DNA from: Westiellopsis prolifica IICB1
Lineage (GTDB): Bacteria; Cyanobacteriota; Cyanobacteriia; Cyanobacteriales; Nostocaceae
Length of the DNA: 64,000 nt
Assembly (NCBI RefSeq): GCF_004323185.1
Contig: NZ_NAPS01000002.1
Coordinates: 1,884,408-1,948,407, forward strand
Reading direction: 5' to 3'
Part shown: one piece after another, positions 11,210 through 28,787 of the stretch
Position numbering within the stretch: position 1 is the stretch's first letter
How the letters are laid out: each line of letters opens with the position of its first letter
The notes under the pieces: generated by a model
Told to the model about the DNA's origin: nothing
The model's input: only the letters and a program-made list of their open reading frames with translations
Databases searched by the model: none
Position numbers and translations under genes: made by a program

Positions 11210-12454
11210 CTAGGTAGTTAAGCGATGGAGAGGTGAAAATTTTCTTTTGAACTCAATAGCAGAAGAAAGTGATACACAGACATATACAACCCAAAACGTA
11301 TTTACTAATAAAATACAACTGTCACTGAAATTCAGAAGACAAAAAAGTCCAATAAATTGTAACATCCAGGCATATTCTATGGTTCTAGAGTAAATAAATA
11401 ATATTATGACTCTTTTTAAAGTCAAAAATAAATTAACGATAAATGTTAAGAACCCAATGAAACCAAGTTGAACAAAAAGATCTACATAACCGTTATGAGA
11501 GTGGAAGGAGGTAGCACTACGAGAAACTGCCTCATCGAAAGCTGCCCAGCTATTTTTTATGACATAATCAGCAGCTTGTGAACCCCAAAAACCTCCATAA
11601 CCATAGCCCAACCAAGGTCGCTCTAATCCTTTTTCAATAGAGAGACCCCAAAGAGGAGTGCGACCGTTAAATTCAAGATCCTTTCCTAATAAATCAACTA
11701 CTATAAACTCCAAATTAGCAGTCAACAAAACAGTAACTGCAATAGCAAATAAAGAAAAAATTAAAAATATTAATAGTCTAACTTTACCTTGTTTATTGAT
11801 TTTATATAAAAGAACAATAGCTAAAGAAAAAACAATCATTAACAATGAAGTTTTACTGTTAGCTTTTATCGCTAAAAATAAAGTTAATAAAAAGCCAATA
11901 ATTGCAGCAATTTTATTATTTTTTTTGTCTAAATATGTTACTACAAATATTGAAGCAAAAAGTCCCAACTGACGGCCAAGTGTCTGTTTGTGTGAGTAGA
12001 TACCTAACCAAGATAATTTTCCATCGACTACAGCAGTGCCAAAAGATGGAAATAAAAAGACACTACCTAAAGATAGAATCATTGATATTCCAGCACTCCA
12101 AGACAGCAAGCTTACCTGTTCTCTAGGACGGTATTGCATTGCTAAATAAGCTCCTAAGAGACTTGAGCGGAGTAAAAACCTCAATTGATATGCAGTACTT
12201 TCTGGATTGTTAGACCAAAAAAGTGAGGCAAACGCTAAACTGAGCAATAAGAGTAAAGAGATATCTCGTGTGGCAACATAAAGAAATCTTTTTCCTCGTC
12301 CAAAAATTACAAAAAATAAAAATAAATAGATTATTATACTGACGAGATTTACTATTAAGGGTGGGAAAGGGAAAAACTCAGTAAGTAAAATTAAAGCAAT
12401 TGTACTTATAATCTCTAGCTTATTTTTCAAAGCTACAAGCGATATTTTTGTCAT
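11210..12454 (-). CDS. Wzy/O-antigen ligase-type membrane protein
   Basis: A polytopic membrane protein of 414 residues with about ten hydrophobic spans and one large periplasmic loop around residues 255-310. The loop has GRTPLWGLSIEKGLERPWLGYGYGGFWG and a conserved SFHSHNGYVDLFVQLGFIG block, the pattern of the O-antigen ligase/polymerase family (Wzy_C). In a locus with its own Wzx and chain-length kinase, the likely role is polymerising flipped repeat units outside the membrane. WaaL-type ligation is the alternative; sequence alone rarely separates the two. Confidence 0.85.
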   Translation of the reverse strand: MTKISLVALKNKLEIISTIALILLTEFFPFPPLIVNLVSIIIYLFLFFVIFGRGKRFLYVATRDISLLLLLSLAFASLFWSNNPESTAYQLRFLLRSSLLGAYLAMQYRPREQVSLLSWSAGISMILSLGSVFLFPSFGTAVVDGKLSWLGIYSHKQTLGRQLGLFASIFVVTYLDKKNNKIAAIIGFLLTLFLAIKANSKTSLLMIVFSLAIVLLYKINKQGKVRLLIFLIFSLFAIAVTVLLTANLEFIVVDLLGKDLEFNGRTPLWGLSIEKGLERPWLGYGYGGFWGSQAADYVIKNSWAAFDEAVSRSATSFHSHNGYVDLFVQLGFIGFLTFIVNLFLTLKRVIILFIYSRTIEYAWMLQFIGLFCLLNFSDSCILLVNTFWVVYVCVSLSSAIEFKRKFSPLHRLTT

Positions 12455-12517: not shown

Positions 12518-13759
12518 TCAACAAATCTCTTGAAAAAGAGATTTGTAGTGATCTGCTTGAATTTCTAAAGTAAATTCTTGTAATACCTTTTCCCTAGCAA
12601 AATATGATAGTTGACGATGCCTTTCCTGATTTTCGAGTACCCAGGCAATACCTTGAGCCAAATCTTCAACTTTATAAGCTTGAGCTAAGTAACCATTTTT
12701 TTGATGCTCAATCATATCTGGCATACCGCCAATGTTAAATGCGACACTGGGTGTTCCACAAGCGATCGCTTCCATGACTGTGTTGGCTAAATTTTCTTCA
12801 ATTGAAGGTAAAACAAACACATCTGCGGCTGAATATACCACAGCCAAAGACAAATCATCATTAAGCGTACCGACGTAATGAGCCTGAAAACCAAAATCAG
12901 GAGGATTTTCTGGTTGAGATGCTCCAAAAATGACTACTTCTAAGCGATCTTTCCAGCCAGATTTGCTCAACTCTTCCAAAGCTGCTTGTAACAGATGAAA
13001 GCCTTTTCTTTTATCACTGGTTGCTCGTAATGAACCGAAGAGAACAAGTTGCTTATCTTGTGGTAATTTGAGTAGTTTTCTGGCGATGTGACGCTCAATA
13101 GGTCGATATGTTTGAACATCCACTCCATAAGGAATAACTTCAACACGTAAATCTTGAAAAAGCGAACTATCTCTTGCACATCTAGCTAACCAAGAGCTAG
13201 GTGTAACTATTGTGAGGTTAAGTTTTTTCCAAGCATTCGTTTTGCGTTTCCATACCCAACGAGACAAATCCCAGTCCTTGTTGCTACCAAGCTGAGGACA
13301 AGTTCCACAGGATTTAATGTAGCGCTCGCAATCACCACTGTAGTGACATCCTCCAGTGAACGCCCACATATCATGAAGCGTCCAAACTAAAGGTTGTTTC
13401 AGCTTGGCAAGTGTTTCTATATGTACAAATGCTCCACTAATCCAGTGTAAATTAATGATATCTGGATTAATAGCAGCAATTTTGGGAATTACTCTATCTG
13501 GTAACCATTGAAGAGAAAATATATTTTCACTTCGTTGACGATAAAACTTTAATGGTAAAGTATCAAATGTCAATTTTGAACGTGCTAGCCCTTGAAACAT
13601 CCTAATTCTTGGCGCCAATACTGTTTTGTCATCACTATTTTTTTCTTGTACTAGCATTTGTGAATTGATACCAATATTTTGCAACCCCTTGTGCAAACGA
13701 TATGAAGCACGAGCTGCACCACCTGAAATATCTTGAGTACTAAGGAGCAAAATTTTCAT
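12518..13759 (-). CDS. GT4-family glycosyltransferase (WcaC-like)
   Basis: A GT-B glycosyltransferase of 413 residues. The N-terminus ISGGAARASYRLHKGL (about 11-26) and the cysteine-containing WTLHDMWAFTGGCHYSGDC (about 127-145) are characteristic of the WcaC-like GT4 subgroup; the further CGTCPQLG could make a small metal site with the preceding cysteines. The donor domain shows LVLFGSLRATSDKRKGFHLL and FVLPSIEENLANTVMEAIACGTPSV with the EX7E residues. It should add a sugar to the lipid-linked oligosaccharide. It is 43 bp downstream of the HlpA-like gene and 63 bp upstream of the polymerase gene. Confidence 0.88.
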   Translation of the reverse strand: MKILLLSTQDISGGAARASYRLHKGLQNIGINSQMLVQEKNSDDKTVLAPRIRMFQGLARSKLTFDTLPLKFYRQRSENIFSLQWLPDRVIPKIAAINPDIINLHWISGAFVHIETLAKLKQPLVWTLHDMWAFTGGCHYSGDCERYIKSCGTCPQLGSNKDWDLSRWVWKRKTNAWKKLNLTIVTPSSWLARCARDSSLFQDLRVEVIPYGVDVQTYRPIERHIARKLLKLPQDKQLVLFGSLRATSDKRKGFHLLQAALEELSKSGWKDRLEVVIFGASQPENPPDFGFQAHYVGTLNDDLSLAVVYSAADVFVLPSIEENLANTVMEAIACGTPSVAFNIGGMPDMIEHQKNGYLAQAYKVEDLAQGIAWVLENQERHRQLSYFAREKVLQEFTLEIQADHYKSLFQEIC

Positions 13760-14798: not shown

Positions 14799-16151
14799 TC
14801 ATTTAGTATTAAATCCTTTGACGTATCTGAATATTCTATTTAATAAACTTGGTAATAAAATTGCTTTGGTTTGCATCATAAAAATCTTTCTAGTTCGTGG
14901 CAAAAATAGAAAAGATATATATGAAGCAATACATTGAGCAATTAGTGAAGAAATTGCTGCTCCTATACCTCCATAACCTTTGATTAAAAAGTAGTTCAAA
15001 ATTATATTGATGACTGCACCATTGGCAGTTGCTATAAATGTAAATTGCATTAAATTTTCTGCTGTGGTCCACAGACCACATACCAAGCCTATGGAAACAA
15101 ATAATCCAGTCCAAATATGGATTATAAGTATAGTCCCTGCTTCTGCATATTCTTGGCCATACATCAAATTGATAATTTGGTATGAGAACAATGAAAATGT
15201 TACACCAACTGCAAAAGACACAATTGTCAGAAAGTCTAAAACTTTCTGTATTTGTTCATAGTACAGATCTTGATTTACTTGTTTGGCTTTTAAAATGGAT
15301 GGAAAGACTGAACTTGTTATGGCAGTTGGTATGAAATACCAAATTTCTGATATCTTGATTGCTGCCGAGTAGATTCCTACTGCTTTGTCACCAATCATCT
15401 GACCTAGCATTAACTGATCAGTTCGCATGTAAATCATGACGACAAAACTTGTAAAAATGAGTGTCCAGCTATCTTTAAGTAACTCTATGGCATACTTCGA
15501 GCTAAAATGCCATGCTTGTATGAAATAACCTTTAATCCTATACGCCACTACAAGTCCCAAAGCACTCAGAGCGGTTTCAGCAGAATAAGCCCAAGCGAAA
15601 AAAAGTAATGGAGCTTGTATTTGGATCAAGAAAACCCGCATACAACTAGCTAGCACCAAACCTATATTCTTAAACCAAACCGTATATTTGGACTGAACTT
15701 GGGATTGGAACCAATAATCAATAACGTAATAAGATTCAAAAAACATTCCCACAGTCATAATTCCAACCAATTGATGGATAAGAATTTCGCGGGGACGGAT
15801 AATGATAATTACCGCAACTGAGAGAAATATGATCACAACTTGGGCTAAAACCTTCATTAAGAAGGCTGTGCCTAAGATTTCATCTTTCTTGTTGGGTTGA
15901 CGGACAATGTTACGAACAACAATGCTATCAAGTCCTAGATTTGCAACTGTGTTGAAGATAGCAGTAAAAGCGATCGCGTAATTAAAAATACCGAAATTTT
16001 TTGGTCCGAGGTAGCGGGCTACCCATACGCCCACCAATAGTCCCGTACCCATTCGTAAAACTCTATCTGCTAACAGCCAACCTGTGTTACTAATAATCTT
16101 TTGTAGGTTAGGACTGAGTTTATCGGTAATTCTTTCTATGTTTTTGAGCAT
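14799..16151 (-). CDS. Wzx-type polysaccharide flippase
   Basis: A 450-residue polytopic protein with about twelve to fourteen hydrophobic segments, in the MOP/PST exporter family. The N-terminus NTGWLLADRVLRMGTGLLVGVWVARYLGP (about 22-50) is the signature start of bacterial Wzx/RfbX proteins, and TDQLMLGQMIGDKAVGIYSAAIKISE (about 243-268) is the usual mid-protein block. It should flip the undecaprenyl-linked repeat unit to the outer leaflet. The gene begins 49 bp after the BY-kinase gene ends, so the two export components are co-transcribed at the head of the locus. Confidence 0.92.
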   Translation of the reverse strand: MLKNIERITDKLSPNLQKIISNTGWLLADRVLRMGTGLLVGVWVARYLGPKNFGIFNYAIAFTAIFNTVANLGLDSIVVRNIVRQPNKKDEILGTAFLMKVLAQVVIIFLSVAVIIIIRPREILIHQLVGIMTVGMFFESYYVIDYWFQSQVQSKYTVWFKNIGLVLASCMRVFLIQIQAPLLFFAWAYSAETALSALGLVVAYRIKGYFIQAWHFSSKYAIELLKDSWTLIFTSFVVMIYMRTDQLMLGQMIGDKAVGIYSAAIKISEIWYFIPTAITSSVFPSILKAKQVNQDLYYEQIQKVLDFLTIVSFAVGVTFSLFSYQIINLMYGQEYAEAGTILIIHIWTGLFVSIGLVCGLWTTAENLMQFTFIATANGAVINIILNYFLIKGYGGIGAAISSLIAQCIASYISFLFLPRTRKIFMMQTKAILLPSLLNRIFRYVKGFNTK

Positions 16152-16200: not shown

Positions 16201-18420
16201 TCAACGATTTTTCACCATCAGAGATTTTTTAGACACACTAGTTGACTCCACTGAATCTTTTGCATAGTAGAAGTAGCTGTCAGGTTCGCGCTTCACGCTG
16301 ACACCATTAATGACCATACCCAATATTTTTTGTCCTGACTGAGTTAAAAACTCTTTAGCTGCACTAGCACTTGCAAAATCAACCACTTCTGGACGCACCA
16401 CTAACAGAATACCGTCTGCTAATTTACCCAGAACTGCTGCATCTGCTGTTCCTGCTAAAGGTGGAGCATCGAAAATTACACAATCATAATCTTTTGTAAA
16501 GTTCGCAACTAAGGCAGCCATACGCTCGGAATCTAGTAGGGCTACTGGATTAGGAGGTATCACTCCAGAGGTGAGAACGTGTAAATTGGGCATTACTTCG
16601 TGGACAACGGTCTCTAAAGGAACTTGATCAACAATGATATTACTTAAGCCTTTTTTATTGCTTAGTTGCCAAATATGATGCTGGATGGGATGACGCATAT
16701 CAGCATCTACCAAAAGTACTCGACGTTCAACTTCTACCATTGCTACAGCCAAATTGGCAGAAACCTCTGATTTTCCTTCTTTAGGAATGGAACTAGTAAC
16801 TGTAATTGCTTTTAGCTGCTTATCTGAAAGGAATTTCAAGTTTGCTTGTAGCATTTGGTATGCGTCACCAACAGGAAAATGGGGGACATCTCTACCAACT
16901 ACTCTGGGAACTGGTCTATCTAAACCTTCTACTGAATAGCTATTTTTCCCACTTCGACTAACACTAGGAATTACCCCTAGCAAAGTGTATTGGAAAAGTT
17001 CTCTCGCTTCTTTAACAGTTTTGATAGAGCGGTCTATTAAATCAGAAATCAGAGCAGCAATTATTCCAAGCAGTATACCTAAAATTCCTCCACCAAAAAC
17101 AATCAGAGCTTTTCTCATTCCACTCGGCTCATCTGGTACTAATGCAGGGGAAATGATTCGAGCATTACCAATATTTTGGTTTTCGGCTACGTTAATTTCT
17201 TGTAATCTGGTCAAAAGCGTTTCATAAGTTGTTTGCGCGGCTTTCAGCTTTCGCTCTAGTTCCCGTTGGGTTTGCTCTAATCGAGGTAAAGTATTGGCTC
17301 GCTGTTTGTACAAAGACCATGTATTTCTCAAATCAGCAATTCGTTTCTCCAAACCTGCACGTTCTTTATCTGTACTTGCTAAATCTTCAATCAGCTTTTG
17401 TCGTACCTCTCCCATCTGTAAATTAGCTGTAGACATTTGCTGACTATTACCACCTACTTGCTCTACTCGCTGTCGTAATAAATTTTTCAGAGCAGAAACT
17501 TTTTCTTCTAACTGAGAGACTGTCGGATGTCCTGGTAGATAACGGGTTCGCGCCACCGCCAAATCGGTTTGTGCTTCCTGGAGTTCTTTGATTACTTCTT
17601 GAGTTCCAGCTACTTGGCTCAAGTCAACTGCTGATACAGCTTCTTGCGAGTTCACCCTAGCCTGGTTTTGTAATTTCTCCAGACGAGCATTAGCATCAAC
17701 AAGTTGAGCTTGGGCTTGGGCAATTTCATCTTCTAATTTTGAGATTGTATTAACTGCTGCGGTTGCTTCTTCTTGCAGAACGATTACCTTATTTTTCTCT
17801 TTGAATCTACGTAAGGCTAATTCTGCTTTCTGCACAGCTTCCTCAGTTTTAGGTAACTGCTGCAATATAAATTTACCTGCTGAGGTTGCTTCTTCTCTAT
17901 TGGCTTGGATGTTTTGCTTAATATAAGCATCAACTACTTTATTGATGACTTTTGCAGCCAATTGAGGGTTTTCATCTGTATAAGATATTTCTAGGACATC
18001 TGTACCTTTGAGACCCTCTACTTTCAAATTTTTTAGCAAATCCTTAATTTTTAAGGGTTCACCTTCATCATCTTTGAGGCTCAAGGTTGTGATGGTTTCC
18101 TGAATTACAGGAACAGATGTAACAATTTTAGCTTGTGTGTCTAAGGGACTGTCCTTCTCCGCTAGAGATTCCAGTCGTCCTAAATCTTCTCCCAATCCTG
18201 TTAATGAGGATGCTCGATTTGTCTTAATTAACAGACTCGCTTGTGCTGTATATGTCGGTTTCGATGATAATGCGTATAATAATGCAAGGGTGAGAACTAC
18301 TCCAAATACTCCTACTGCGGTCATCCAACGTCGTTGTAGAACAAGCAAGTATTTTTGAACATCTATCTCTTCAAGTTGATATTCAGATTCTTTCATGGCA
18401 GATGTTGGCCTATTAATCAT
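16201..18420 (-). CDS. Wzz/GumC-type chain-length regulator fused to BY-kinase
   Basis: A polysaccharide co-polymerase of 739 residues with its tyrosine kinase on the same chain, as in Wzc. Order: Wzz domain with a first membrane span (about 32-52), long periplasmic coiled coil (about 185-420), second span (about 440-465), then the cytoplasmic BY-kinase. The kinase has Walker A SIPKEGKSEVSANLAV, Walker A' RVLLVDADMRHP and Walker B DCVIFDAPPLAG. The C-terminal tail has only a few tyrosines (SYFYYAKD), fewer than proteobacterial Wzc. It controls polymer length and export. As the first gene of the minus-strand run it is probably next to the main promoter. Confidence 0.93.
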   Translation of the reverse strand: MINRPTSAMKESEYQLEEIDVQKYLLVLQRRWMTAVGVFGVVLTLALLYALSSKPTYTAQASLLIKTNRASSLTGLGEDLGRLESLAEKDSPLDTQAKIVTSVPVIQETITTLSLKDDEGEPLKIKDLLKNLKVEGLKGTDVLEISYTDENPQLAAKVINKVVDAYIKQNIQANREEATSAGKFILQQLPKTEEAVQKAELALRRFKEKNKVIVLQEEATAAVNTISKLEDEIAQAQAQLVDANARLEKLQNQARVNSQEAVSAVDLSQVAGTQEVIKELQEAQTDLAVARTRYLPGHPTVSQLEEKVSALKNLLRQRVEQVGGNSQQMSTANLQMGEVRQKLIEDLASTDKERAGLEKRIADLRNTWSLYKQRANTLPRLEQTQRELERKLKAAQTTYETLLTRLQEINVAENQNIGNARIISPALVPDEPSGMRKALIVFGGGILGILLGIIAALISDLIDRSIKTVKEARELFQYTLLGVIPSVSRSGKNSYSVEGLDRPVPRVVGRDVPHFPVGDAYQMLQANLKFLSDKQLKAITVTSSIPKEGKSEVSANLAVAMVEVERRVLLVDADMRHPIQHHIWQLSNKKGLSNIIVDQVPLETVVHEVMPNLHVLTSGVIPPNPVALLDSERMAALVANFTKDYDCVIFDAPPLAGTADAAVLGKLADGILLVVRPEVVDFASASAAKEFLTQSGQKILGMVINGVSVKREPDSYFYYAKDSVESTSVSKKSLMVKNR

Positions 18421-18526: not shown

Positions 18527-18952
18527 TTAACCGATAAATCCGAAATCCTTGCTGCTTTTACAACCAACCATTTTTGAATGTCTGCGAGTGAATTCTCCTA
18601 CCGAAGGGTTTCCTTCTGGATAAATTACCCCCATTGCTTGCTGCCAAAGTTCTGGAGCTGCAATCGATACTTCATAAACGCGATCGCGCTTTTTCAGGTG
18701 ATACCATTTTTTTTCTTGACATTGATCACACCAAAATGCTTCCAACCATTCTCCTTCTAGAGGTACTGCGGTTTTCTTTGCTACTAAAAAAAGTGCTGTT
18801 TGTCGCCCTATTCCCCTCTGCTGGAGTTGTCCTGGGCGATCAGCAAATAATGGATATTTTTGACTGACACTATCTAGATAGCATCCGTGAATCGGACAAT
18901 AGATCGCTCGTCGTTTTGAACGTTTGCGATTTCGGTCACATCTTCTTTGCAC
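18527..18952 (-). CDS. conserved-looking basic protein with possible zinc-binding cysteines
   Basis: I do not recognise this 141-residue protein. It has a very basic N-terminus (MQRRCDRNRKRSKRRA), then CPIHGC (about 19-24), a charged middle, and CDQCQ (about 74-78) before KKWYHLKKRD. The CxxxxC and CxxC pairs could form a zinc ribbon. It starts 35 bp from the nearer copy of the structured repeat motif and is 106 bp ahead of the BY-kinase gene on the same strand, so it may be co-transcribed with the polysaccharide locus or regulate it. That is inference from position. Confidence 0.6.
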   Translation of the reverse strand: MQRRCDRNRKRSKRRAIYCPIHGCYLDSVSQKYPLFADRPGQLQQRGIGRQTALFLVAKKTAVPLEGEWLEAFWCDQCQEKKWYHLKKRDRVYEVSIAAPELWQQAMGVIYPEGNPSVGEFTRRHSKMVGCKSSKDFGFIG

Positions 18953-18983
18953 TTTGACCTCCCTTGTTGGGTAAATGTACAGT

Positions 18984-19050
18984 AGAGCAAGAAGTTTGCG
19001 CTAGAGGAACTGAGATCTAAAACTAGACCATCGTAAGTTCATCTCTATTT
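18984..19050. promoter_or_regulatory. copy A of a tandem structured motif
   Basis: About 60 bases resemble 19298-19362 at a constant offset of 314 then 312. Shared blocks include gcaaga, gagg, actgagatct and gaccatcg. In this copy agag+gaac (19003-19010) pairs with gttc+ctct, leaving a 2-nt bulge (at) in the 3' strand. It lies just upstream of the minus-strand gene at 18527-18952. Confidence 0.45.
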
Positions 19051-19297
19051 TTGAATTAATTATTTAGTTTAAATTTACTTTAGTTAATCAATAATTTAGT
19101 CATTCTTTTATAAAGATTCTGCAAAGGATTCTTTTCGAGAACACAAAATAGACACACAATAATTATCGATTCAGACCTCAAATTCAATCAAAAATATATC
19201 TGAGCGCTAGACAGAAGGACGTTTGTGCAGGGTAATTAAATTTTAGTTATAACTTTCCTGGTAACTCAGTCATCCTGAGATTTCTAAACATCTAAAT

Positions 19298-19362
19298 CTA
19301 GCAAGATGGCTGGGTTGGAGGGACTGAGATCTTAGTTGACCATCGAAGCCCTACTCCATCAA
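19298..19362. promoter_or_regulatory. copy B of a tandem structured motif
   Basis: The partner of 18984-19050. The same stem can form here as ggag+ggac with gccc+ctcc (one A-C mismatch), again with a 2-nt bulge (ta). At two base pairs both partners differ from copy A while pairing is kept, which suggests a structure under selection. Confidence 0.45.
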
Positions 19363-20898: not shown

Positions 20899-21029
20899 TT
20901 AATTAGACTTGATACGAATTTACACTGAACCATAACTTAATTCATGGATTGGACGGAGCAAATGCAACTTCAGGATTTTTAGCGAAGGGACACTACCATT
21001 TCCTCTTACACAACTTAGGAGTATTCAAA

Positions 21030-22919
21030 ATGGGTAAAACTTACTATGTTTCTGCCGAAATCGGTAATGATAATAATAACGGCTTAAGTGAAAACACTGC
21101 ATTTAAAAGCCTACAAGTAGGAGCAGATCGTCTAAAAGCAGGCGATACACTCTACATCATGAACGGGACTTATACCCAGAGTGATCCCAGCAAAGACTTA
21201 CTGTCAATTTGGAATAAAAGTGGCTCACCGGACAACTGGACAACCATCAAAGCGTACCCAGGACACACTCCTAAGTTGAAAGTCAAGGGAAGTCTTGGGA
21301 TTAACGTCACCTCTTCATCTTACGTACGTATTGAAGGACTTGACATAGAAGGTAGTAAGGATGAGATTACATTAGAATATGCTCAAAAAGAGCAATACAA
21401 TCCAAACAACTTTATTACCAATAGCTCTGGGATTAGAGTTAACGGTCGCTCTGACATGGGCTATTCTGACCACATTGTTATTAGTGGTAACAAATTCCAT
21501 AATTTCACTGGTGCAGGTATTGCAGCTAACGATGCGGACTATCTCACAATTGAGAAAAACGTCGTCTCTGGCAATGCTTGGTATTCGTCCCATGGTACAA
21601 GTGGTATCAGTCTGATTTGGAACAGGAACTCAGACAATAACACTAGCGATTACAAGATGATTATTAAAGACAACATTGTCTACGATAATCAAAGTCTTAT
21701 TCCATGGATCGGGTCAGGCAAAATTGGTGAGGGTCATGGTATTATACTTGACACATCAGATGGTACAGATAATCGTAGTCAACCCTATCAAGGAAAGACA
21801 TTAGTAGCCAATAATACCGTTTACAACAATGGTGGCCATGCTATTGTAGCTTTCCAAAACTCCAATGTAGACATTGTCAACAATACTACTTACCAAAATT
21901 CTCGTAATTCATACACGAACGGAGAGATTGCAGCCCTACATTCTAAAAATGTGCGTGGCTACAACAACATTATGTATGCGAGACCTGATCGCAAAGCCAA
22001 TTTAATTTGGGATTCAAAAAATGTGACGTTTGATTACAATCTGGCTTATAACTCCTCTCAATTCATGAGTTCAGATAATCCCAATGCAGGGAATTTGCAA
22101 AATATTTTGGGTTACGATCCACAATTTGTAGATCCTTCGCGGGGTAATTTTACACTCCAATCCACAAGTCCGGCGATTGATGTTGGTTCTAACATTTTTA
22201 ATGGCGTCAGCACTTTGAAAACAGACCAACGCGGTAATAACCGTCCGCAAGATGGCGATGGTAACGGTAGTACCATTACTGATATTGGCGCTTTGGAAGT
22301 GGGAAGTAATTCAGCTTCTCCTCAAAATAGCCAAGTTATAGGTGTCAGTGATAGTACGACTCCTATTGTTGAGGAGACAGGTAATAACACTGTTGTTACA
22401 ACTTCGGATGCAAATAGCAATCAAATTCTCCCTCCAGGATCAAATAATCAAGTTTCTGGCGATTTGGAAATCGACATTCTCACAGGACAACCTAGTGGAG
22501 ATGGCTCTATCTATATCGTTAATAATCAACAACAGGGATTTTCCCAATCATCGGTGAATGGAGTCGATCCGATCACCAACTCTAATCCAAATCAAGGCGA
22601 TCGCATCTGGTTCAACAATGATGGCACATTATCCACATCCACAACACAAGGAACCCAAAGAATATACGTATACGATGCAGGTTTGGTGACAGGGAACAAT
22701 CTATCTGCTGCAATTCAAGCAGCTTATAACGATAAAGATCCACAAACCCAAGGTGATCAGGCATTAAATAACAACGAGAGTGTATTATTCCAATGGGAAG
22801 GTAGTACCTACTTGGCAATCAATGACCAGAATAAACCTTTTGATACCAATAATGATTTGCTGATCAACATGAATGGTGTGCAAATTCCAGGGAAAAATAC
22901 AGCCACAGGTGTTTTGTGA
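21030..22919 (+). CDS. right-handed parallel beta-helix surface protein
   Basis: The start is taken at ATG 21030, which has a good ribosome site (taggag, about 21016-21021), rather than at the upstream in-frame ATG 20949; this gives 629 residues. From KTYYVSAEIGNDNNNG the protein has the fold of pectate-lyase-like, poly-mannuronate-epimerase-like beta-helix proteins, with repeated short turns such as ANNTVYNNGGHAIVAF and VDIVNNTTYQNS to about residue 380, and DVGSNIFNG...IGALEVG closing the helix. The C-terminal 120 residues (VLFQWEGSTYLAIND..) resemble the bluetail domain of cyanobacterial secreted repeat proteins, so export may be by a type I system; no N-terminal signal is visible. It may bind or modify polysaccharide. 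It is divergent from the polysaccharide locus. Confidence 0.78.
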   Translation: MGKTYYVSAEIGNDNNNGLSENTAFKSLQVGADRLKAGDTLYIMNGTYTQSDPSKDLLSIWNKSGSPDNWTTIKAYPGHTPKLKVKGSLGINVTSSSYVRIEGLDIEGSKDEITLEYAQKEQYNPNNFITNSSGIRVNGRSDMGYSDHIVISGNKFHNFTGAGIAANDADYLTIEKNVVSGNAWYSSHGTSGISLIWNRNSDNNTSDYKMIIKDNIVYDNQSLIPWIGSGKIGEGHGIILDTSDGTDNRSQPYQGKTLVANNTVYNNGGHAIVAFQNSNVDIVNNTTYQNSRNSYTNGEIAALHSKNVRGYNNIMYARPDRKANLIWDSKNVTFDYNLAYNSSQFMSSDNPNAGNLQNILGYDPQFVDPSRGNFTLQSTSPAIDVGSNIFNGVSTLKTDQRGNNRPQDGDGNGSTITDIGALEVGSNSASPQNSQVIGVSDSTTPIVEETGNNTVVTTSDANSNQILPPGSNNQVSGDLEIDILTGQPSGDGSIYIVNNQQQGFSQSSVNGVDPITNSNPNQGDRIWFNNDGTLSTSTTQGTQRIYVYDAGLVTGNNLSAAIQAAYNDKDPQTQGDQALNNNESVLFQWEGSTYLAINDQNKPFDTNNDLLINMNGVQIPGKNTATGVL

Positions 22920-28449: not shown

Positions 28450-28787
28450 GGCAAGTTAAATTTCGCACATTACATTATTCTCTGGTTAAGCATGAAACCA
28501 GGAATATTAAGATTAAGAATTTAAAACTTACCAACCAACACATACTCAAAAAAAACCTCGGCGATTAACCGAGGAAGTTAGGAGAGATATATATCTTGAT
28601 GGGAGATACCTATACCAAAATCAAAAACTTTTAGTTATATTTGTTTTTGTATATAAAGAAATATAACAATCTTGTTACAACATGTCAATATGACTTGACA
28701 TTAAAAAGCTAATACCAGTTATTTATTTTCCTGGATGCTGTAGCAAGATTAAAATCAAGATGAAGAAACATTTCGTAGCTCAAGGAC
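28450..28787. other. 338-bp gap upstream of bchH
   Basis: Contains the minus-strand terminator-like hairpin at 28548-28574 and otherwise AT-rich DNA that should hold the bchH promoter. No reading frame is credible. Confidence 0.4.
28548..28574 (-). terminator. rho-independent terminator on the minus strand
   Basis: Read on the minus strand, cctcgg (28574-28569) pairs with ccgagg (28561-28556) over a 7-nt loop and is followed by eight T residues (28555-28548). This is a textbook terminator, yet no minus-strand gene precedes it before bchH (plus strand) starts at 28788. Confidence 0.65.

Follow-up and report, generated by a model that had tools for sequence, protein, structure and literature searches.

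RfaH and UpxY are NusG-family elongation factors dedicated to polysaccharide operons; RfaH uses a DNA element (ops), and UpxY is encoded first in its operon. The exopolysaccharide operons of Bacillus carry a leader RNA, EAR, which acts by antitermination, and in lambda the boxB hairpin is short and has a fixed pentaloop. To our knowledge, the cyanobacterial phylum lacks Rho, and how cyanobacteria switch on their long polysaccharide clusters is poorly understood. According to excerpts of one paper (PMC8955417), conAn of plasmid pLS20 consists of a protein, ConAn1, and an RNA, conAn2, at the start of a long operon, and belongs to conjugation operons on Gram-positive plasmids, in which more than 20 intrinsic terminators occur; the same excerpts class EAR among RNA factors, as opposed to protein factors. 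Excerpts of a second paper (PMC12691694) present LoaP as a NusG paralogue, a dedicated protein that binds a small UNCG leader hairpin (dfn/mln) and acts on long operons, and for which the 10 nt directly 5' of the hairpin also matter.

Here, we analyzed a window of 64,000 nucleotides from Westiellopsis prolifica IICB1 and its relatives in other cyanobacterial genomes. An undescribed folded RNA, probably a leader, heads, or repeats inside, surface-polysaccharide clusters of cyanobacteria. Together with P0001, a small protein encoded directly behind many of its copies, this RNA looks like a dedicated switch for long operons.

A folded, probable leader RNA in cyanobacterial genomes

A preliminary description of this DNA had reported blocks shared between 18984-19050 and 19298-19362, at offsets of 314 and then 312, with a stem in each copy. 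Both the blocks and the stems are present in the sequence. The block AGCAAGA...ACTGAGATCT is a 33-nt direct repeat that begins at 18986 and 19300 (79% identity; start to start, 314), and the second shared block, GACCATCG, recurs at a spacing of 312, i.e., two bases closer. The RNA strand is the minus strand, and the consensus of the first hairpin, P1, is GGAG-NN-GGGCU-UC-GA-U-GGUC-loop-GAUC-UC-AGUCC-CUCC. Read in this direction, all of the P1 bulges lie on the 5' arm, and the A-C mismatch ascribed earlier to copy B turns out to be a G-U pair. The inner stem GGUC/GAUC pairs fully on the minus strand only, as the plus strand has A-C at one of the four pairs. In copy A, the inner bulge is one base longer than in the consensus. 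The element is larger than initially noted, with a box upstream of P1 and a second hairpin, P2, downstream of it (Table 1). Copy A lies directly upstream of the P0001 open reading frame (ORF), and copy B lies about 310 bases further upstream. Single-copy folding energy is an uninformative guide to strand or structure (z of -1.65 on the minus and -0.56 on the plus strand for copy A, and of -0.87 and -1.07, respectively, for copy B).

Table 1. Features of the tandem RNA and of the genes behind it (positions in the window)
Feature	Position	Strand	Evidence
Copy B upstream box AAATAGAATA, weaker match, 7.9 bits	19375..19384	-	position scan
Copy B hairpin P1 (GGAG-UA-GGGCU-UC-GA-U-GGUC-loop-GAUC-UC-AGUCC-CUCC)	19317..19357	-	cmsearch, 64.7 bits at 19359-19304
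Copy B hairpin P2 (CAUCUUG / CAGGAUG, 24-nt loop)	19271..19308	-	stem in sequence; arm-swap test across copies
Copy A upstream box AAACTAAATA	19061..19070	-	expectation-maximisation motif and position scan
Copy A hairpin P1 (AGAG-AU-GAACU-UAC-GA-U-GGUC-loop-GAUC-UC-AGUUC-CUCU)	19003..19046	-	cmsearch, 51.6 bits at 19048-18990
P0001 Shine-Dalgarno-like GGGAGG	18959..18964	-	sequence
P0001, 141 aa, GTG start, first gene after the RNA	18527..18952	-	ORF; alignment; AlphaFold model
Wzc/Wzz-type chain-length/tyrosine-kinase protein, second gene of the presumed operon	16201..18420	-	Pfam Wzz, GNVR, AAA_31
Wzx-type flippase	14799..16151	-	Pfam Polysacc_synt
Glycosyltransferase	12518-13759	-	Pfam Glycos_transf_1
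O-antigen ligase/Wzy-type protein	11210-12454	-	Pfam Wzy_C

Homologues of the RNA were sought with sequence patterns and with a covariance model. The core pattern CGATGGTC-N(2-14)-GATCTCAG occurred at 30 places in 20 of 59 genomes, including the source genome, versus 2 matches for the reversed control pattern. A scan of named genomes for relatives of P0001 yielded 102 loci, the best 80 of which come from Fischerella, Nostoc, Calothrix, Scytonema, Anabaena, Dolichospermum, Brasilonema, Symploca, and others. When up to 3 substitutions were allowed, a simple pattern matched within 700 bases upstream of the P0001 relative in 74 of these 80 loci; the match in one of them (L142) was spurious, and the model finds a real copy in that locus. 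The model found the element in 63 of the 65 P0001-relative loci examined (none in L168 and L170), which is not an independent test of the model because many of those sequences helped to build it. Among 292 evenly drawn cyanobacterial genomes, the model gave 81 matches in 36 genomes, with up to 12 per genome and a single copy in 19 of the 36; the RNA is distributed over the Nostocales and some other cyanobacteria. There was no match in 20 random regions of RNA-bearing genomes. Within the window, the next best place after copies A and B, both of which are part of the model, scored 14.1 bits. Neither of the two refuting outcomes named at the outset for homologues was seen: the covariance search returned copies elsewhere, and the stem survives most of the substitutions in them. 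The tandem form holds for the window but fails as a general rule, as single copies and repeats between genes occur elsewhere. A divergent, weak group was seen in two genomes, G284 and G015 (loci L204-L209, L220, and L221; 28-38 bits), with up to 12 matches in one 4-Mb genome, similar flanks, and often another P2 (GACUC/GAGUC). Of the viral-contig stretches, 32 matched the pattern exactly; in these the model gave two partial matches (23.6 bits, E of 0.0019; 15 bits, E of 0.35), which we take for chance.

A search of the window and of 16 loci of relatives with Rfam 15, which we take to include EAR among its 4227 models, placed no family at the element at the gathering score, and nothing credible at E up to 5, in keeping with the earlier remark that no described motif fits. 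The sole Rfam match in the window lies elsewhere and is PsrR1, a photosynthesis regulatory small RNA (sRNA) (RF02701, 46.6 bits, at 28551-28633 on the minus strand). In the open-licence literature searched, there was no description of the RNA or of P0001, and the main text of an sRNA survey (PMC4734099) makes no mention of polysaccharide, glycosyltransferase, UTR, Fischerella, RNA structure, or Infernal.

Pairing in P1 is maintained across the copies. In the model alignment of 106 copies (103 distinct), which leans towards the structure, 97.2% of P1 cells pair, and double changes occur at 7 of the 15 pairs, in 44 cells versus 7.2 +/- 2.3 in shuffles. Sliding the partner column by one lowers pairing to 55-56%. 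A hand alignment of 51 sequences (49 of 90 copies plus the two window copies) gave 96.3% paired cells and 13 double-change cells versus 3.3 in shuffles; in this alignment, copy A and the rows in which the outer bulge is one base longer or shorter sit one column off in the outer stem, a fault that the model alignment corrects. G-U pairs are frequent and hold on one strand only. The internal-loop nucleotides are near-invariant, and the loop varies in length and sequence; in two loci (L155 and L165), complementary arms lengthen the apical stem.

Analysis of P2 was divided according to whether a copy stands directly before P0001, as judged with a protein profile, in the set without the divergent G284/G015 group. 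In relatives, ACCUUC of P2 can pair with GGAGGU of the P0001 Shine-Dalgarno sequence or with GAAGGU of the first P0001 codons, and copy A in the window shows imperfect P2 pairing with the GGAGG of its Shine-Dalgarno sequence. Away from a P0001 start, the two arms change in concert, for example to ACCAUCU/AGAUGGU (L112), CUCUC/GAGAG (L108), and GCCUU/AAGGC (L099). In 44 copies not directly before P0001, the copies' own arms scored 15.07 versus 13.18 when arms were exchanged among copies (best of 100 exchanges, 14.14), and a thinned set of 32 such copies gave 15.11 versus 13.34 (best, 14.53). The 69 copies directly before P0001 gave 15.80 versus 15.77, their arms being too invariant to show covariation. 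P2 covaries in copies without an adjacent P0001 start.

Upstream of P1, expectation-maximisation over 90 regions, thinned from 113 with the divergent G284/G015 loci left out, recovered a box with the consensus AAAYTRAATA (log-likelihood of 110 versus 18-27 in single-base shuffles, with 12 restarts for the real data and 5 for the shuffles). In 38 of the 90 regions, the best match begins 24 to 26 bases ahead of the first base of the model. A promoter -10 reading of this box is probably wrong, as the TAnnnT pattern is absent from the motif. The box resembles the 3' half of the boxA of rRNA leaders. In the source genome, about 140 bases ahead of the 16S rRNA, three rRNA leaders contain CGAACC-W-TGAAAACT and, after it, CAATA, GTATA, or TTATA. 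In relatives, the pattern CGAACCNTGAAAACTNNATA was found at 26 places in 15 of 59 genomes, with RA at NN in 13 of the 26 and the ATA ending fixed by the pattern; the letters of AAACTAAATA end 10 of these 26 boxA-like matches, and location in an rRNA leader is established for the places in the source genome only. AAACTRAATA, the 3' part of boxA, was enriched upstream of the elements outside the divergent group (7.84 of 10 versus 6.90 in shuffles). The 5' half, CCTTGAAAAC, was not enriched in the same set (5.82 versus 5.84), and when the box matrix was applied to the three rRNA leaders, 8, 155, and 769 of 2000 shuffles reached the observed score, so that one of the three is strong. For these two reasons, the likeness to boxA is no more than suggestive. 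A 14-mer, TTGAAAACCGCATA, occurs at four places, one in L293 (about 1500-1520) and three more on contig G000:C1; the L293 place lies outside an rRNA leader, with AGGTGTGTCGA repeats on its flanks, and 3 kb around it gave no Rfam match.

Polysaccharide clusters and the P0001 gene

In the window, P0001 is followed by genes for Wzc/Wzz, Wzx, a protein without a Pfam match, a glycosyltransferase, and Wzy/ligase. A right-handed beta-helix protein is encoded on the far side of the tandem RNA (20949-22919, plus strand), and in four further genomes of the group, its relatives adjoin this locus as well. The source genome has four copies of the element in all, each before polysaccharide genes; one (C8:2535312) precedes an ABC-2 permease and a Wzt-like ATPase, and a weak one (C1:685344) precedes WecG-type, sugar-transferase, and Wzc-type genes. 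Together with the homologues and the covariation, this gene context bears out the proposal of a tandem structured RNA, here placed in the presumed leader of the minus-strand polysaccharide locus.

Downstream genes were mapped for 79 of the 81 model matches (one weak G015 match was left out). The first downstream ORF of at least 100 aa was on the same strand in 76 of the 79, at a median distance of 110 nt (range, 2 to 1403 nt). Where this was the case, the first five ORFs were co-directional in 98.3% (346/352), versus 74% (358/484) in 20 random regions of RNA-bearing genomes; because neighbouring elements of one cluster share downstream ORFs, the context counts are not independent. In several genomes (G296, G128, and G209), a single cluster contains elements at intervals of 2-4 kb, all on one strand. 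The first two same-strand ORFs of at least 120 aa, excluding P0001 and with duplicates removed, formed a set of 142, in which Pfam identified ABC2_membrane (21), ABC_tran (16), GDP_Man_Dehyd (16), Polysacc_synt_2 (9), and Polysacc_synt (7). ABC2_membrane is absent among the 25 families listed for 103 control ORFs and hence occurs there at most once. Glycosyltransferases were no commoner behind the elements, with Glyco_trans_1_4 in 4 of 142 ORFs versus 3 of 103 controls. Directly downstream of elements (L210-L219), Uma2 (17 of 142, versus 2 of 103 controls), DUF4351 (8), and DUF29 (7) were also seen, as if inserting or persisting within polysaccharide islands.

The N terminus of P0001 is arginine-rich, QRRCDRNRKRSKRRA, and is followed by a zinc-ribbon-like C19xxH22 ... 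C75xxC78. Lysine and arginine make up 58% of residues 2-16, versus 12% from residue 21 on. In an alignment of the window protein with 43 of the best 80 relatives, residues C5, C19, H22, C75, and C78, among others, are invariant; a further alignment (A6) was made with one truncated ORF left out. The best AlphaFold model (mean pLDDT of 72; the other four, 53 to 61) has a helix at residues 3-15, with pLDDT below 50 at residues 1-8, and a beta-rich core. P0001 is a small basic protein that probably binds RNA. It has no Pfam match at E up to 10, so that no NusG-type domain was found in it, and no NCBIfam match. A search of PDB sequences gave none (best E of 0.86), the best match in PHROGs was to a family of unknown function (E of 0.038), and Foldseek and VIA-align searches with the model gave none with E below 0.001 or Z of at least 5 (best, 3.3). 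Membership of the NrdR or MqsA zinc ribbons was considered, but the weak fold rows were not taken as evidence, and a phage origin was rejected, as there was no match in the phage collection records. A plasmid search gave one distant match, in Fischerella. Relatives of P0001 also occur away from this RNA, in small-genome and other cyanobacteria (L328-L345), many with basic N termini and a CxxC/H ... WLEE(F/L)xC core. Judged from their sequences, the relatives may form a larger uncharacterised family of putative nucleic-acid-binding proteins.

The RNA and P0001 occur together. A profile search found P0001 in 49 of the 292 genomes, namely, in 35 of the 36 RNA-positive genomes versus 14 of the 256 RNA-negative ones (p of about 1e-32, uncorrected for shared ancestry). 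The one RNA-positive genome without P0001 (G008) has a weak RNA match. The best E values were 8e-53 to 3e-11 in the 14 RNA-negative genomes versus at most 1.2e-57 in each of the 35, and 16 loci around the relatives in those 14 genomes contained no element. Outside the G284 and G015 genomes, a full-length P0001 lay within 900 bases behind 35 of 63 elements, a fragment behind 2, and none behind 26; two of the 35 full-length matches (in G022 and G107) contain a stop.

In four genomes of one genus in the Fischerella group, the P0001 gene of a third locus is a remnant, as shown by DNA alignment in all four and by protein search, which finds it with stops, in two (G000 and G002). At these loci, identity is 41% over the 150 bases upstream of P1, 96% in P1, 51% over the next 45 bases, 66% over the next stretch, and 87% further down, mostly in the next gene. 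Amid the diverged upstream sequence, one island, TAGGAAAACTRAATTTAT, has hardly changed. The retention of P1 where P0001 has decayed is the best evidence for a cis action of the RNA on the operon, beyond any service to P0001.

Candidate functions of the RNA and P0001

We consider it likely that the element is a cis-acting leader RNA partnered with P0001. The element comprises a linear AT-rich box, AAAYTRAATA, then the highly conserved bulged hairpin P1, then P2. We infer that P0001 may bind P1 through its arginine-rich N-terminal helix, both in cis and in trans. The complex of RNA and P0001 would then modify RNA polymerase or the transcript, allowing the long operon to be expressed, by processive antitermination or elongation control like that of nut/N, EAR, or conAn. 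Where P2 lies over the P0001 Shine-Dalgarno sequence, it may also let the protein tune its own translation. By analogy with these systems, antitermination may be the output of the RNA-P0001 system, with a chance that we put at slightly below even. Intrinsic-terminator-like hairpins were not in excess in the 1.5 kb downstream of the elements (38 on the same strand versus 65 on the opposite), so that there is nothing obvious to antiterminate, and an attenuator was rejected on the same count. A fuller version is doubtful but conceivable. It would be a host-encoded, nut/N-like processive antitermination system in which a boxA-like sequence and a bulged hairpin are loaded by a zinc-ribbon-like, arginine-helix protein and polymerase crosses whole polysaccharide islands; one protein copy would act in trans on several elements, as many as about a dozen, and internal repeats would reload the complex. 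For the control of costly capsule, slime, and O-antigen clusters, the RNA and its apparent partner protein predict a regulon, a regulator, and, for laboratory strains of Nostoc or Anabaena, testable mutants.

The strongest rival is translational control through P2, which could also act in addition. P0001 would regulate the translation or mRNA stability of its own gene and of other operons through P1 and P2, like ribosomal-protein or CsrA-type autoregulation, and would leave RNA polymerase untouched. In its favor, the Shine-Dalgarno sequence GGAGGU can form the 3' arm of P2 in gene-linked copies, 69 of 113 copies have the P0001 start at most 90 nt after the P1 model ends, and the first same-strand ORF lies at a median of 110 nt. 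The invariant P2 arms of the gene-linked copies weigh neither for nor against it. However, P2 is kept in copies without an adjacent P0001 start, and the next ORF is hundreds of bases away in several copies, as the range of distances given above indicates. We regard this account, taken as a replacement for a polymerase-directed switch, as rather unlikely.

It is less probable still that the RNA is a riboswitch or other ligand-sensing leader, responding for instance to a nucleotide sugar or second messenger, with P0001 as merely another regulated gene. The near-invariant internal-loop nucleotides of P1, the polysaccharide-gene regulon, and the tandem copies in the Fischerella group would suit such a sensor. 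Against it stand the presence of P0001 in all but one of the RNA-positive genomes and the finding of no expression platform, such as a terminator, downstream; most aptamers, moreover, are unlike a simple bulged hairpin with a variable loop. The label "riboswitch-like" used at first finds no support here, as there is no sign of a ligand and the companion of the RNA is a gene for a small basic protein.

Two readings are very improbable. One is that the RNA is an sRNA, or a processed 5' fragment, that acts in trans on other mRNAs, for which short, conserved hairpins at up to 12 per genome would be expected enough; the same-strand position of 76 of 79 first ORFs and the recurrent polysaccharide context argue instead for action in cis. 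The other is that the element is a repeat spread by mobile or shuffled cassettes in polysaccharide islands and has no regulatory role. Similar copies do occur every few kb in G209, G296, G128, and the weak G284/G015 group, among Uma2, DUF4351, and DUF29 genes, and transposase genes lie nearby in one case checked, but the covariation, with compensatory changes across genera, disfavors this reading, as do the retention of P1 beside a decayed gene, the same-strand orientation, and the single copies in 19 of 36 genomes. An operator at the level of DNA, in which a transcription factor binds an imperfect palindrome, would match the imperfect inverted repeats of the stems and the conserved upstream box but is barely credible, because the G-U pairs are strand specific, and given that the bulges all lie on one arm and that P2 pairing is maintained over variable loops.

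Comparison with known systems

The likely pairing of a leader RNA with P0001 shares traits with each of the systems described above. RfaH and UpxY have the same type of target operon, polysaccharide, but neither a NusG-family protein nor a DNA element was found here. With lambda nut/N, the element shares a linear box followed by a hairpin, and both the composition of P0001 and its model (pLDDT below 50 at residues 1-8) agree with an arginine-rich helix. P1, in contrast to boxB, is long and bulged, with a loop that varies in length and sequence where boxB has its pentaloop, and P0001, unlike N, has a zinc-ribbon-like body, is cellular, and is without a match in the phage collection. LoaP, as portrayed in the excerpts, recognizes a small leader hairpin and the sequence just upstream, an arrangement that the putative binding of P0001 to P1 would resemble, whereas P0001 is without a Pfam match and the P1 loop is variable where the LoaP target is UNCG. 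EAR resembles the element as a leader RNA of (exo)polysaccharide operons and, as described in the excerpts, differs from it as an RNA factor with no protein factor. The elements described here stand in polysaccharide clusters with no terminator excess, unlike conAn as depicted in the excerpts, and the likeness, compared on architecture alone, lies in a bipartite protein and RNA at the head of long operons. If antitermination is indeed the output, the RNA and P0001 would constitute a non-NusG, protein-plus-RNA system dedicated to polysaccharide operons.
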